A DNA stretch of 36,770 nt from Nitrospirota bacterium (lineage in GTDB: Bacteria > Nitrospirota > Thermodesulfovibrionia > Thermodesulfovibrionales > Dissulfurispiraceae), in contig SCQE01000094.1 in NCBI GenBank assembly GCA_004321915.1, forward strand, positions 1-36,770. The letters are read 5' to 3'. Below the pieces are notes generated by a model that saw only the letters and a program-made list of their open reading frames with translations, searched no databases and was not told the origin of the DNA. The translations under genes were made by a program, and so were the position numbers. Positions 4,192 to 11,234 of the stretch are shown piece by piece; the stretch's first letter is position 1; each line of letters starts with the position of its first letter.

Positions 4192-5145
4192 ATGGCAAAG
4201 AAACAAGACCCGGTATCGACAGCAGCGCTTGAAATAGTCGGCGCAGAGAAAATGCAGGAAAGCTTAAAGCAGAGCGAACAACAATTAAAGGAAAAGAGCA
4301 TGGTAATAGCTGCCGAACTGGTAGGGACAATAAAGGCTATGAATTTTATGCGCTCGCTTTCTGATATTACCGTCCTCGTGAAGCTCAAAGAATTAAAGGA
4401 GAGCAATCACTATAAGGCATCTTTTTCCACATGGGAAGAAACCTGCGAGGCGATGGGTCTAAAACGCAGGACCGTGGATGAAAAACTTGCAGACCTCGAA
4501 CCCTTCAGAGATGACTTTCTCGGCAATTTCGCCAGTTTCTTTAGCAACGATTTCAGGAAAATCAAATACTTAGGCAAAGCAGTTTCGGCGGAATCCGCCA
4601 AAATTGAAGATAATGCCATCCTTTATAACGGCGAAACTATCCCTGTTACTCCAGAGCATGCCGACGAAATACAGGCCCTGATCGAGAAGCTCGAAGACGA
4701 CTACAAAGCCAAAATCTCAGACAAGGAGTCCGAGCTTAAAGCTCAGAAGCGCATCGCCTCCTCCAAAGAAGATGTTATCAAGAAGATGGAAAAGGAGATC
4801 AAGCGTCTTGAGCGCACTGCAACAATCGACGATCTGTCTCCTGAAGAGCGCGAGTCTTTTGACCTCATGGCCCGTGTGCAGGGCGATATTGTTTCGCTCT
4901 TTAGCGCGCTTAAGCAGCAGATTGATTATCACAAGGCACCCGCATCCGTGCTGCGCTCGCTGTATTTCCTTTATATCTTCGGTTCCAAAATATTCAGCGA
5001 CGAACGCATGGCACTGAATGAAGTGTATAAGGATGCCGAAATGGTTCCGTGGGAAATTGACGAATGCGAACTTCCACCTTCTGCCGTGCTGGCAAAAGAG
5101 ATGCCCTTAACCAAGGGCTTAAAGCACAAAAAAGGAAAGAAGTAA
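4192..5145 (+). CDS. Coiled-coil protein of the early operon
   Basis: This 317-residue protein has an N-terminal helical region (about 40-105) that includes LKELKESNHYKASFSTWEETCEAMGLKRRTVDEKLADL. That resembles DUF3102-like segments in which a helix-turn-helix follows a KELKES motif. A long charged coiled coil spans about residues 160-215, and a helical C-terminal domain is followed by a Lys-rich tail. The ATG follows GGAGG closely. It lies immediately upstream of the transposase, where transposable phages often carry accessory early genes. The function is not known; a DNA-binding structural or replication role is a reasonable guess. Confidence 0.65.
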   Translation: MAKKQDPVSTAALEIVGAEKMQESLKQSEQQLKEKSMVIAAELVGTIKAMNFMRSLSDITVLVKLKELKESNHYKASFSTWEETCEAMGLKRRTVDEKLADLEPFRDDFLGNFASFFSNDFRKIKYLGKAVSAESAKIEDNAILYNGETIPVTPEHADEIQALIEKLEDDYKAKISDKESELKAQKRIASSKEDVIKKMEKEIKRLERTATIDDLSPEERESFDLMARVQGDIVSLFSALKQQIDYHKAPASVLRSLYFLYIFGSKIFSDERMALNEVYKDAEMVPWEIDECELPPSAVLAKEMPLTKGLKHKKGKK

Positions 5146-6966: not shown

Positions 6967-8235
6967 GTGCCTACAGCAGCAGCGTATATAACACCGTTTA
7001 AGCCGATGACTATCAAGCGGTTATTGCTCCAGTTGGGAATTGATCAGGCAACGGTAAGCAGGTCTCTGGACGTATCCCGCGCGCTCGTGAGTTTGGTTAT
7101 TAATCGCGGATATATTCCTCCGAGCATGCGCGATATCAGGGAAAGGATAGAGCAATTATTGGTAATACGTCCGGATGTCGATGAATGGCTTAAAAAAAAT
7201 CAAACAAACATCACGGCTATCTGGCAGATAGAGGGCGAGGATCTGCGCGACAGGAAACCCTCCGGGGCCAACAGGCGCGGACGAGAAACGAACAAGATGC
7301 CCGCAATAGTGATCTGCAATCCCAATACTGACGCATCTAAAATCAAGGAGGAAGACTACATGCTATCGCAGGAAGCAAAAAAGCATTTCAAGATGTTCAG
7401 ACATCCATTCTTAAACGACATGGAAAAAGACGGCGACACCTATATGGGAGAAGACCACCGGTACATACTCGAGGTGATGGACTTCGCCGCAAATCACGGC
7501 GGCATGGTCGCGGTGATCGGCGAGGTCGGCAGCGGTAAGACCAGCATGCGCCGCGAGCTCGAAAAGCGCATCAGGCGCTCAGGCGATATACGCATTGTGT
7601 ATCCGCGCATCATAGACAAATCAAGGGCAACCGCATCCTCATTATGCGATGCCATTGTCTATGACCTGACTGATGGCAAGGGCACGCCGAAGTCGCGGCT
7701 GGAAGCCAAGTCGCGGCAGGTAGAGCAGCATCTAAAGGATCACTGCCGCAGCGGCATGAAAGTCGCAATGATCATCGAAGAGGCGCAGGACCTTATAGCC
7801 AACAGCCATACGATCAAGATGCTCAAACGCTTTAACGAGATCGAGTTCGAGGGCAAAAAGACCATAGGCATTATCCTGATCGGCCAGAGCGAGCTTTCAA
7901 GCGTGTTTGATGAGACTGTGAACTACCACATGCGCGAAGTTATCAGACGCTTTGAGGTTGCCATAATACGCGGACTTAACGGCGACCTCAAAACATACCT
8001 TGATCATAAGTTCAAGCGCGTCGGAGTTGACCTAAAAACAATCATCACCGATGAGGGCATTAAGGCGCTGTCCGACAGGCTCACTACAAAAGAAGGCAGG
8101 CGCAAGGTGAGCATAGCCTATCCGCTTACGGTCAACCGCTGGATGGTGCGTGCCATGAACGAGGCCGTAGAACTCGGGGAACGCATAGTCACTCCTGAGA
8201 TCATCAACAGTCTGCAGGGCTTGGAGGCGCTATGA
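6967..8235 (+). CDS. B: MuB-like transposition target ATPase
   Basis: This is a 422-residue AAA+ ATPase. An N-terminal helix-turn-helix (residues 26-48, IDQATVSRSLDVSRALVSLVINR) is followed by a linker and an ATPase domain. That domain has Walker A GEVGSGKT (185-192), Walker B VAMIIEEAQD (266-275) and a sensor-like GIILIGQSEL (301-310). In Mu, B binds target DNA, delivers it to the transposase and gives target immunity. At 422 residues it is longer than Mu B (312). The GTG start has GGGGG about ten bases upstream. The gene follows the transposase by 16 bases and overlaps the next gene as ATGA. Confidence 0.92.
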   Translation: MPTAAAYITPFKPMTIKRLLLQLGIDQATVSRSLDVSRALVSLVINRGYIPPSMRDIRERIEQLLVIRPDVDEWLKKNQTNITAIWQIEGEDLRDRKPSGANRRGRETNKMPAIVICNPNTDASKIKEEDYMLSQEAKKHFKMFRHPFLNDMEKDGDTYMGEDHRYILEVMDFAANHGGMVAVIGEVGSGKTSMRRELEKRIRRSGDIRIVYPRIIDKSRATASSLCDAIVYDLTDGKGTPKSRLEAKSRQVEQHLKDHCRSGMKVAMIIEEAQDLIANSHTIKMLKRFNEIEFEGKKTIGIILIGQSELSSVFDETVNYHMREVIRRFEVAIIRGLNGDLKTYLDHKFKRVGVDLKTIITDEGIKALSDRLTTKEGRRKVSIAYPLTVNRWMVRAMNEAVELGERIVTPEIINSLQGLEAL

Positions 8236-8686: not shown

Positions 8687-9094
8687 ATGACGACTACAAC
8701 AATGGAAGAATGCCTTAACAAATCCTGTATCGGCTGCACATGCACGGTAAGTGCCTCGTCAGAAAAACCGGACGTTTTGTCCGGATACAAAACCGAACTG
8801 TGGGACCTGTATGCAGAGTTTTTGAAGTCTGTGCAGAACTGTCTCGGCGATTATTGCGATGAGTTTATTACGGCAGAAGCATGGGTTACAGAAAGGGTCG
8901 TTGTTGTACGACAGAAAGCCTTCTCGTTCTCGGACTGTGCGGAGGACTATTTTGATTTGGCGCTCGTCTTCACCGTGCTCATGGACCACGCGATTTCATG
9001 GGGCTACGTCGAGGCCTCGCGTAGGCTCGAAGCGCTTGCCGAGCGCGCAAAAGTATTGAACGAAAAAATGTACAGAAAGGAGATAGGAGGATGA
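8687..9094 (+). CDS. Hypothetical early protein with N-terminal Cys cluster
   Basis: This 135-residue protein opens with a Cys-rich stretch (CLNKSCIGCTCTV, residues 9-21) that could hold a metal, followed by a mainly helical domain ending in a basic tail. GGGGG lies about ten bases before the ATG. The stop overlaps the start of gam as ATGA. I do not recognise it. It belongs to a run of four small Cys-bearing proteins between B and the methyltransferase locus. Confidence 0.65.
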   Translation: MTTTTMEECLNKSCIGCTCTVSASSEKPDVLSGYKTELWDLYAEFLKSVQNCLGDYCDEFITAEAWVTERVVVVRQKAFSFSDCAEDYFDLALVFTVLMDHAISWGYVEASRRLEALAERAKVLNEKMYRKEIGG

Positions 9095-9627
9095 GGCTGG
9101 GAGATATCGAACAACTGGCAAAGCGGTACCATGCAACCGAAGCGGATCTGGCAGAGAAGATCGTGGCTATGGATAGGGAACTCAAGTCTATCGAGGCGCG
9201 GTACCTGCCGCTGATCAAGCGGCGCTTCGAGGCAGCGGTTGAGGCCCACGCATCATTGCATGCCGGGGTATTACAGAGCCCTGAACTTTTCAAACAGCCC
9301 AAGACGATAGTTATTCACGGCGTGAAGTGCGGCTTCGGTAAGGGCAAGGGCAAGATCATCATCGAGAACGCAGACAACACAGTGCGCCTGATCGAAAAGC
9401 ATCTGCCTGAACAAGCCGAGGCGCTCATTGAGACGACAAAGAAGCCCATGAAAAACGCCCTCCAAAACCTAAGCGGCGCGGAACTTAAAAAAGTAGGAGT
9501 CACGGTACAGGAGGCCGGAGAGCAGGTCGTTATCAGGCTCGTAGCCAACGTAGTGGAGAAGATCGTAGCGGCTTTCAGGAAGCAATACATGAAAAACGGC
9601 GAAGCGGAGATGGAGGAGGCGGCATGA
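9091..9627 (+). CDS. gam: Host-nuclease inhibitor Gam
   Basis: This 178-residue protein matches Mu Gam in size (174) and pattern. A long N-terminal coiled coil (MRLGDIEQLAKRYHATEADLAEKIVAMDRELKSIEARY) is followed by the beta core with the IVIHGVKCGFGKGKGKI segment, and it ends in the conserved helix with LVANVVEKIVAAFRKQ. Gam is a Ku-like dimer that binds double-stranded DNA ends and blocks exonucleases. GGAGATAGGAGG precedes the ATG. Both ends overlap neighbours as ATGA, so it is translated as part of a coupled series. Confidence 0.9.
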   Translation: MRLGDIEQLAKRYHATEADLAEKIVAMDRELKSIEARYLPLIKRRFEAAVEAHASLHAGVLQSPELFKQPKTIVIHGVKCGFGKGKGKIIIENADNTVRLIEKHLPEQAEALIETTKKPMKNALQNLSGAELKKVGVTVQEAGEQVVIRLVANVVEKIVAAFRKQYMKNGEAEMEEAA

Positions 9628-9803
9628 GTGAGCAGCCCGAAGAGTACTACTGCCCGGTCCATAAATACAATCCTCCGGCTAACTCTGGATTTTTGTTATG
9701 CCCGTTTTGTGAAAAAGAAGCGGTGATCAAGAGAGACCAAACAAATGCTTTGGTTGAACATCCCCTTAATCCTCTACACGATATGGGCTTGCTGGATGGT
9801 TAG
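9624..9803 (+). CDS. Small zinc-finger-like protein
   Basis: This 59-residue protein has the arrangement Cys-Pro-Val-His and, 16 residues on, Cys-Pro-Phe-Cys (YYCPVHKYN to LLCPFCEKE), a likely zinc knuckle. Its ATG overlaps the gam stop as ATGA and GGAGGAGG precedes it. It is the last gene before the ribozyme-bearing leader of the methyltransferase locus. Mu Com, the translational activator of mom, is also a small zinc-finger protein, but I see no sequence evidence that this one binds RNA. Confidence 0.68.
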   Translation: MSEQPEEYYCPVHKYNPPANSGFLLCPFCEKEAVIKRDQTNALVEHPLNPLHDMGLLDG

Positions 9804-9815
9804 TAAGTGACCGAA

Positions 9816-9875
9816 GGCCGAAACGGCGGGGCAGTAATCCCGCCGTCGCTCCGTTAAGCGGAGACTGATGAGGCC
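9816..9875 (+). ncRNA. Hammerhead ribozyme, type II (open at stem II)
   Basis: All invariant hammerhead core elements occur in the right order for the type II permutation. These are GAAA (9820-9823), the cleavage triplet GUC (9845-9847) and CUGAUGA (9865-9871). Stem III is 8 bp (9823-9830 with 9839-9846, including the required A-U closing pair) with an 8-nt loop. Stem I is 5 bp (9849-9853 with 9859-9863) capped by UUAAG, with a G-A mismatch at its base. Stem II pairs GGCC at 9816-9819 with GGCC at 9872-9875, the conserved G-C next to the core included. Cleavage would fall after C9847. The ribozyme ends at the base before an ATG, and the only Shine-Dalgarno-like GAGG (9870-9873) is inside it. 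Confidence 0.88.
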
Positions 9876-10874
9876 ATGAAAAAAACATGTATGAACTATC
9901 ACTCTTTACAGGCGCGGGGGGGGGCATCCTCGGATCAAAAATCCTTGGATGGAAAACCCTCGGATACGTCGAGGTCAACGCTTACAGACAGCGAATCCTC
10001 GCGCAGCGCATTGCAGATGGAATTCTTGATGCCGGGCCTATATTCGGCGATATCCGTGCATTCATCAGTGAAGGGTACGCCCTCAGTTATCAAGGCATGG
10101 TTGATGTCGTATCGGCAGGTTTCCCCTGCCAACCCTTTAGCGTTGCCGGCAAAGGACTCGCCGAAAACGATCCCCGCAATATGTGGCCTGAAACTATCGA
10201 AGTCATTCGCATCGTTCGACCGAGGCACATCCTCTTGGAAAACGTCCCCGGACTTCTCTCAAAGCCATACGTTAGGCGAATTCTCGGAGACTTGGCCGAA
10301 ATCTTTCCTTATATTCGAGGGGGCTGCTTATCGGCTTGCACCGTTGGAGCAAATCACCGGAGGACGCGACTCTGGCTTATTGCCGACACCGAACGCCGGG
10401 GATGGTGTGAGAGGTGCTCGACCGGCGGACGGCAAGAGAGGGAAGTTGCTGACGGATTATGCGGGACCGAATCCCACTCGGCGTTGGCCGACGCCAACGG
10501 TGATGGATGCGGCAGGCTTTTGCGGCAAGCCGGACAAAGGGCGGACATCGCCAAATTCGGGGAGGACACTGACAGGCAAGGTATTGGAGATAGAAGGCGT
10601 AGGGCCCCACGCGAAAAAAATGTGGCCGACGCCGAGGGCATCTGCGAGCGGTCCGGACTTTGCCCGAATAAACAGAATTACGAAAAACGGGAACAAGCCG
10701 GGCGGGGACGATCTCGTGACGGCCGTAGTAAAAGAAATGGGTCCGACGACTGGTGGGAGATTGAACCCCGACTGGGTCGAGTGGCTCATGGGGTGGCCGC
10801 TCGGCTGGACAGACTTGAGGCCATTGGACTTGGACAGGTACCAAGAGTGGTGGCGGAAGTATGGCGATTATTGA
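9876..10874 (+). CDS. Overprinted reading frame inside the cytosine methyltransferase gene
   Basis: This is a second open frame of 332 codons, offset by one base and covering nearly all of the methyltransferase gene. Its product has an ordered motif set. SFASFDRGTSSWKTS (110-124) overlies the ENV motif. Three [LW]PTP repeats (LPTPNAGDG 169-177, WPTPTVMDA 204-212, WPTPRASAS 250-258) overlie the ADT/ADA repeats. LNPDWVEWLMGWPLGWTDL (296-314) overlies motif X. I recall similar proteins annotated in many phages, sometimes loosely as methyltransferases; this needs a search. Start ATG 9876 directly abuts the ribozyme, with GAGG two bases upstream. It could be translated, be joined to the other frame by slippage at G9, or be an unused shadow. 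Confidence 0.5.
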   Translation: MKKTCMNYHSLQARGGASSDQKSLDGKPSDTSRSTLTDSESSRSALQMEFLMPGLYSAISVHSSVKGTPSVIKAWLMSYRQVSPANPLALPAKDSPKTIPAICGLKLSKSFASFDRGTSSWKTSPDFSQSHTLGEFSETWPKSFLIFEGAAYRLAPLEQITGGRDSGLLPTPNAGDGVRGARPADGKRGKLLTDYAGPNPTRRWPTPTVMDAAGFCGKPDKGRTSPNSGRTLTGKVLEIEGVGPHAKKMWPTPRASASGPDFARINRITKNGNKPGGDDLVTAVVKEMGPTTGGRLNPDWVEWLMGWPLGWTDLRPLDLDRYQEWWRKYGDY

Positions 10875-10885
10875 ACGATGAGTGA
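9887..10885 (+). CDS. dcm: DNA cytosine-5 methyltransferase (Dcm type)
   Basis: This 332-residue protein transfers methyl from S-adenosylmethionine to C5 of cytosine. Motif I FTGAGG is at residues 7-12, motif IV with catalytic Cys81 in GFPCQPFS, motif VI ENV at 118-120, motif VIII-like HRRTR at 157-161, and a motif IX/X-like end VAHGVAARLDRLEAIGLGQVP at 299-319. The usual GN of motif X (IGNGQVP) is GL here. The region between (about 168-290), where a target-recognition domain would sit, is short, Arg/Gly-rich and built on ADT/ADA repeats. Start ATG 9887 lacks a well-placed Shine-Dalgarno sequence. A G9 tract encodes motif I. It probably protects phage DNA from restriction. Confidence 0.85.
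   Translation: MYELSLFTGAGGGILGSKILGWKTLGYVEVNAYRQRILAQRIADGILDAGPIFGDIRAFISEGYALSYQGMVDVVSAGFPCQPFSVAGKGLAENDPRNMWPETIEVIRIVRPRHILLENVPGLLSKPYVRRILGDLAEIFPYIRGGCLSACTVGANHRRTRLWLIADTERRGWCERCSTGGRQEREVADGLCGTESHSALADANGDGCGRLLRQAGQRADIAKFGEDTDRQGIGDRRRRAPREKNVADAEGICERSGLCPNKQNYEKREQAGRGRSRDGRSKRNGSDDWWEIEPRLGRVAHGVAARLDRLEAIGLGQVPRVVAEVWRLLNDE
9916..9924 (+). repeat. G9 homopolymer at the start of the methyltransferase frames
   Basis: Nine consecutive G lie 30 bases into the methyltransferase frame and 41 bases into the overlapping frame. A slip of one base exchanges the two frames, whether by replication slippage or by ribosome slippage. From the ATG at 9876, a -1 shift enters the methyltransferase frame just at motif I. 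Poly-G tracts of this length are classic phase-variation sites; here it also encodes the Gly run of motif I, so it may simply be constrained coding sequence. Confidence 0.6.
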
Positions 10886-11234
10886 ACAACTGCAAATAGG
10901 ATTTGAGCTGACGGCGCGGGAGCGATTGATCCTGTCGCTGATTCCGACGGGTAAAAAGAATGCCCGGCTAGTCGGCACGATAGCCGAACAATCTTTATTG
11001 CATTGGCGAGAGGTTCAGCAGGTAGTGGAGACTTTAATACATAAACACGATTACTGCATCGGCAGCTCAAGCGGCAAGCCGTGCGGCTACTACATCATAA
11101 CAGACGAACAAGAGCTTGAGACGGTCTATCAATCGCTCAGACGACGAGGCATAAAAATATTGCAAAGGGCGTCTAAGCTCAAGCGGATAGCCATTGAAGA
11201 CGTATTCCAACAGGGAAGACTGGAGGTAATGTGA
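10878..11234 (+). CDS. Hypothetical protein, winged-helix-like
   Basis: This 118-residue protein begins with a winged-helix-like pattern (ERLILSLIPTGKKNARLVGTIAEQSLLHWREVQQVVETLIHKHDYCIGSSSGKPCGYYIITDEQEL). Helices, recognition helix and a wing of the form CGYYI(I) are all suggested. A basic C-terminal helix follows (LRRRGIKILQRASKLKRIA). The ATG lies inside the last codons of the methyltransferase gene, so the two are coupled. It is probably a DNA-binding accessory protein; similar small proteins sit upstream of gemA in other phages. The family name is not certain. Confidence 0.7.
   Translation: MSEQLQIGFELTARERLILSLIPTGKKNARLVGTIAEQSLLHWREVQQVVETLIHKHDYCIGSSSGKPCGYYIITDEQELETVYQSLRRRGIKILQRASKLKRIAIEDVFQQGRLEVM

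Follow-up and report, generated by a model that had tools for sequence, protein, structure and literature searches.

A type II hammerhead ribozyme among the early genes of a Mu-like prophage and its likely role in message processing

What does a self-cleaving RNA do between two early genes of a prophage? The question is raised by a short element at positions 9816-9875 of contig SCQE01000094.1 from a Nitrospirota bacterium (assembly GCA_004321915.1; the whole 36,770-nt stretch that was analysed is called the window here), which the original prediction took for a hammerhead ribozyme in the leader of a cytosine methyltransferase gene. In the prophage cases treated in PMC3088659, type II hammerheads flank single genes and cleave 2-kb polycistronic RNAs in vitro, with one set also cleaving in E. 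coli, and Mu-like phage genes have the strongest hammerhead and twister associations in earlier work as cited in PMC10085705. The biological role of prophage hammerheads was described as an open question in 2017 (PMC6155905). In this report, on the evidence of a held-out covariance model, shuffled controls, synteny and covariation, we regard the window element as a genuine, evolutionarily conserved type II hammerhead, and we propose that, lying between early-operon cistrons of a Mu-like prophage, it probably splits their polycistronic mRNA.

Positions 9814-9879 of the forward strand hold all core nucleotides and the three helices of a hammerhead. Reading 5' to 3', the 5' strand of stem II (GGCC, 9816-9819, preceded by A9815) is followed by the core GAA (9820-9822) and A15.1 (9823), which opens stem III (9823-9846). 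The strands of this stem (9823-9830 with 9839-9846) form eight Watson-Crick pairs, including A15.1-U16.1 (9823-9846), and are topped by one G-U pair (9831-9838) and a loop at 9832-9837. C17 lies at 9847, and cleavage 3' of it is predicted from the established hammerhead mechanism. Stem I (9848-9864) has 5 bp (9849-9853 with 9859-9863), a UUAAG loop (9854-9858) and a G9848-A9864 mismatch at position 1.1-2.1, and the core CUGAUGA (9865-9871) then leads into the 3' strand of stem II (GGCC, 9872-9875), which completes a 4-bp helix. These parts were read from the sequence; stem III also covaries in relatives, whose alignment likewise supports the 3' strand of stem II, and the presence of the core GAAA in all aligned relatives is a consequence of scan design. 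The hammerhead core pattern (CUGANGA ... GAA, an A15.1-U16.1 pair and H at position 17) is thus present at 9865-9871, 9820-9822, 9823-9846 and C9847, and GAAA, GUC, CUGAUGA and the stems of 8, 5 and 4 bp all lie where the original prediction had placed them. The order GAA - III - C17 - I - CUGAUGA, with stem II open-ended and stems I and III closed by loops, is that of type II, and together with the Mu-like genes around it bears out the predicted assignment to a type II hammerhead in a prophage.

Pfam and PHROG matches identify the window as a Mu-like prophage, with MuA at 5064, MuB at 6967, Gam at 9091 and GemA at 11231, and the element is intergenic both here and in relatives. The Mu Gam-like protein (9091-9627, +; phrog_491, E 4e-11, with PF07352 just below cut-off) is followed by an ORF of 59 aa with CxxH/CxxC motifs (9624-9803, +), which overlaps the Gam stop codon through ATGA and is slightly shorter than the length cut of the ORF list; its own stop, TAG at 9801-9803, lies 12 nt before stem II. 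The early operon then continues through the ribozyme, the methyltransferase frames and a phrog_2113 protein (10878-11234, +), assigned by its PHROG match and by relatives in which its gene lies downstream of the ribozyme, to GemA.

A strict descriptor matched the window once and matched none of 300 dinucleotide shuffles, both strands being searched, and the folding z-score of the element is -2.9. The Rfam type II model RF02276 aligned to it end to end with 25.2 bits and fell short of the gathering score (37), a curation threshold at which a search of the window gave no match; the window is missed there because its subgroup falls under the cut-off, which some members of the subgroup do pass (37.3-41.7 bits). 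We built a covariance model, R1, from four same-order prophage copies only, leaving the window out; it scored the window at 51.0 bits with an E-value of 5e-12 in a search over 353 kb, and the viral contig L002 at 39.8 bits, its E-values being rough because calibration was short.

Covariation was consistent with the same structure. In the four-sequence seed, 97.3% of pair cells were paired and 9 of 19 pairs had double changes, as compared with 81% and 3.8 pairs in shuffles and with 29-51% paired in slid versions. Two pattern scans of viral contigs gave at least 120 stretches each, and R1 then gave at least 127 matches in 91 searched loci. In the alignment of the 127 matches listed, the paired share of cells is 99.0% and covariation is seen at 17 of 19 pairs; shuffles gave 65% paired and on average 13.9 covarying pairs, and slid controls 33-43% paired. 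Fitting to R1 biases this alignment in favour of the structure, but given the slid controls and the effect size there is little doubt about the predicted fold. All three helices therefore show compensatory changes, the exception being the window mismatch at 1.1-2.1. Of the covariance-model check that accompanied the original prediction, the compensatory changes in related phages were found, in the seed as well as among the 127 matches listed, whereas the Rfam type II score remained below its threshold.

The relatives also define a subgroup. A scan fixing only GGCCGAAA and CTGANGAGGCC gave a set of 103 elements, and among these matches listed, stem I has 6 bp and a 5-nt loop in 83, the first loop base being U in 83/83 and the last being G in 63/83, while stem II is preceded by A in 103/103, although the scan pattern left that position free. 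We infer that the loop I positions and the A before stem II carry the tertiary contact between stems I and II that a pseudoknot makes in the type II consensus published in PMC3088659. Inspection found no pseudoknot of at least 4 bp between loop I and the tail in the window, UUAAG having no 4-nt complement in AUGAAAAAAACAUG, and such a pseudoknot is a feature of the majority, not all, of known type II examples. The likeness to RF02276 (Perreault et al. 2011), as set out in PMC3088659, lies in the core, the permutation (stems I and III closed, II open) and the intergenic prophage setting. In the consensus given there, stem II measures about 2 bp and loop I forms a pseudoknot with the 3' tail, whereas in the window's subgroup, among the matches listed, stem II is 4 bp long and mostly GGCC, stem I has 6 bp and a 5-nt loop beginning with U, and stem II is invariably preceded by A. 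The subgroup is mostly below the Rfam cut-off and yet, since a few members pass it, is continuous with type II and forms no separate class. As a separate observation, 13 of 13 aligned hammerheads with an NTCAG tail after stem II (carried by L121, L141, L144, L148, L172, L176, L188, L249, L276 and L293, some of them mutually related) have N complementary to core position 7 (C-G in 11, U-A in 2), so that CUGANG could pair with the tail in an alternative hairpin excluding the active fold; this hairpin was looked for in the window and is absent.

The genomic setting is conserved as well. Six Mu-like relatives (G118, G063, G016, G042, L237 and L002) have the element at the corresponding place, in this early block and upstream of phrog_2113, but what follows it differs. 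The ribozyme directly precedes the ATG of phrog_2113 in G118 (0 nt) and G042 (2 nt); in L237 the GTG that starts phrog_2113 comes 5 nt after the GGAGG of the ribozyme; a small ORF intervenes in L002 and G063; in G016 a gene with its own Shine-Dalgarno (SD) sequence follows; and in the window the methyltransferase lies between. Thus the ribozyme stays in position as the gene after it varies. The two sister loci, which were the only loci from a scan of genomes with the single protein phrog_2113, are Nitrospirota MAGs. The element is not universal, since no strong match was obtained in five other phrog_2113 prophages (G010, G002, G033, G077 and G004). When RF02276 was run over 150 relatives, the one canonical copy with a pseudoknot that it found was located in G042, close to a gene of the capsid region. 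This relative (G042:C12) therefore carries type II hammerheads of two different kinds (L097 8658-8715 and L081 1501-1565), which are separated by 13 kb and presumably share one Mu-like prophage: phrog_2113 is preceded by the subgroup form, and a capsid-like gene is followed by the canonical pseudoknot-type copy, which scores 68.7 bits. Elsewhere, a stretch of about 5 kb in one phage contig (L124, 170-5158, minus strand) holds 11 subgroup hammerheads between successive small genes, and the L002 hammerhead (9112-9225) has a large structured insertion of about 60 nt in stem III, with one additional U ahead of the second strand of stem II.

The link to the methyltransferase gene that the original prediction had drawn was not sustained. 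The catalytic frame of the C5-cytosine methyltransferase (9887-10885, +; PF00145, E 1e-22; phrog_363, E 1e-50) starts at ATG 9887 (MYELSLFTGAGG..GFPCQPF), 11 nt beyond the ATG 9876 that abuts the ribozyme, and the exact abutment claimed is therefore not to the methyltransferase start. An overlapping +1-frame ORF (9876-10874, +), assigned to phrog_1008 by its PHROG match and by relatives, opens at 9876; this frame also matches three small unknown PHROGs and has no Pfam match, and relatives suggest that its start may lie at 9891 or later rather than at 9876. In addition, ribozymes in relatives precede phrog_2113 or small ORFs. Among 90 methyltransferase loci, L002 alone has a ribozyme, 3-4 kb from its methyltransferase: none of the 80 loci found via the overlapping frame has one beside the methyltransferase gene (the L002 copy lying more than 3 kb beyond), and none occurs at the ten loci found via the catalytic N-terminus. 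The reading as a methyltransferase leader was accordingly dropped. Apart from the ribozyme, the C-terminal part of the methyltransferase gene appears to encode protein in two frames (9887-10885 in frame 0, 9876/9891-10874 in frame +1). At loci found without the overlapping frame, the difference at frame-0 third positions is 0.42, where the null gives at least 0.62, and the identity in frame 1 is 0.52, where the null reaches 0.29 at most; in the biased set of loci found via that frame the values are 0.17 and 0.79. Frame 1 (phrog_1008) recurs with WPTP, ETWP and NPxWVEWLMGWP motifs, and its N-terminal part has stops in relatives.

The role that we favour, argued from position, is the processing of a message between its cistrons. 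The RNA would fold as RNA polymerase passes and cut itself after C9847, splitting the polycistronic early message in two; given the type II geometry, the upstream piece would end with the GC-rich stem III hairpin and a 2',3'-cyclic phosphate, and the downstream piece would carry a 5'-OH and open with the hairpin of stem I. Such hairpin-closed ends would be expected to resist bacterial RNA decay, and protection of both new ends would allow the two halves to be translated and to decay independently. The leftover GAGG may, as a secondary effect, aid initiation where no other SD exists, as in the window. We favour this role because of the intercistronic placement, the hairpin-closed ends of the predicted products, the contig with 11 copies and the published cleavage of polycistronic RNAs. 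Among the 103 relatives (matches listed), 72 have a stop codon that ends an ORF no more than 5 nt from stem II, and in 27 of those 72 the final base of this codon coincides with the initial G of the stem; stop codons hugging stem II in this way suggest that the element is built into intercistronic gaps. The genes downstream of the family's ribozymes are diverse.

The SD-like GAGG (9870-9873) that the original prediction had noticed inside core and stem II is present and consists of core GA and stem II GG; because it is built from these parts, it occurs in most family members whatever the start codon, and its use as a device appears to recur in a minority of the family. In most of the 103 relatives (among the matches listed), the next start follows after about 15-40 nt and usually has an SD of its own. 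When core position N7 is G, giving GGAGG, 7 of 9 lineages have a start codon 5-10 nt downstream, as against 8 of 96 otherwise (among the matches listed, counting starts whose ORF runs to 40 codons or more; Fisher p about 9e-6, in a test conceived after the data had been seen, with lineages grouped by eye and the N7 = G set drawn from two scans with different patterns and one seed prophage). Hammerheads forming GGAGG with stem II in this manner are those of L214, L237, L259, L277, L288, L340-L343 and L096, mostly with a start codon 5-10 nt on. These data suggest that some family ribozymes may double as an SD. Judged by the same features, the window is not among the good examples, with U at N7 and its GAGG 2 nt from ATG 9876 and 13 nt from ATG 9887.

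The ribozyme might instead serve as a translational switch for the methyltransferase, folding to hide the GAGG and the start and exposing or destabilising them on cleavage. The GAGG is the only SD-like site here, and the N7 = G relatives indicate that a ribozyme can supply one; however, the ribozyme is not tied to methyltransferase genes, the window has U at N7 and poor spacing, and in thermodynamic modelling the unpaired probability of GAGG is nearly the same before (0.48-0.50) and after (0.51) cleavage, which leaves post-cleavage SD release unsupported. Of the prediction that cleavage would expose the start, a modest gain survives for AUG 9887, whose modelled accessibility rises from 0.60-0.71 to 0.83-0.85, whereas GAGG barely changes and AUG 9876 becomes less accessible, falling to about 0.06. 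We consider such a switch improbable. Far less credible again is a cleave-and-ligate or circular-RNA scheme with the ribozyme as one end: several copies do flank single genes in some phages, such as L124, but R1 found no second copy in the window or its own genome, and spliced or circular products of prophage hammerheads were sought and not found in the experiments described in PMC3088659.

A chance resemblance of two hairpins and a core-like string could appeal to the Rfam score below the gathering threshold, but the 0/300 shuffles, the held-out R1 match, synteny and covariation effectively refute it, and we give it almost no weight. More substantial, though still unlikely, is a decayed or nearly inactive hammerhead, inherited in the phage lineage and slowed or killed by the G-A mismatch. 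This mismatch at the base of stem I, which the original prediction had called its weak point, is present and stands out more sharply than foreseen, since position 1.1-2.1 holds a standard pair in 126 of the 127 matches listed and the window alone has G-A. Because this unique mismatch lies beside the cleavage site, the window copy may be slow or dead; it also has the lowest R1 score among the order-level prophage members (51 vs 73-91 bits, the four others having built R1). Long decay, however, should leave further defects, whereas the core positions and both hairpins are otherwise intact and stem III is strong, and the mismatch could be an assembly error in a draft genome. Besides the mismatch and the absent pseudoknot, it counts against the processing reading that stem II has a modelled probability of only about 0.58 in a 151-nt context and that the lowest-energy fold of a 261-nt model lacks it. 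We regard self-cleavage of the window copy as probable and retain message processing as the preferred reading.

Prophage type II hammerheads, their clusters around single genes, a halovirus early-gene case and the Mu-like association are already published, as reported in PMC3088659 and PMC10085705. The HHphage hammerhead of haloviruses HF1 and HF2 resembles the window element in lying 13 nt upstream of an early phage gene start in a polycistronic transcript, and differs in belonging to an archaeal lytic virus, in its structural variant and in its place upstream of a helicase; the account of it in PMC3088659 describes no SD inside the ribozyme. The likeness to the self-cleaving ribozymes covered in PMC10085705 is the association with Mu-like genes. 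The window is thus a new, well-supported type II member with unusual placement details and no new kind of switch; what may be new are the delimitation of the subgroup and an SD carried by the ribozyme. We hold only tentatively, as a possibility short of even likelihood, that there is a widespread pseudoknot-less type II phage subgroup, marked by a stem II of 4 bp, a 5-nt loop I starting with U and an A always preceding stem II, that in some lineages doubles as a ribosome-binding site through an SD formed by core and stem II. The G-A at 1.1-2.1 offers a natural test case of a mismatch beside the cleavage site, and the syntenic series, with the same block and different downstream genes, provides a setting in which to test intercistronic processing. 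In the N7 = G set, with GGAGG properly spaced from the start, coupling between cleavage and translation is directly testable; if the tentative reading is true, self-cleavage would be mechanically coupled to translation initiation in such lineages.
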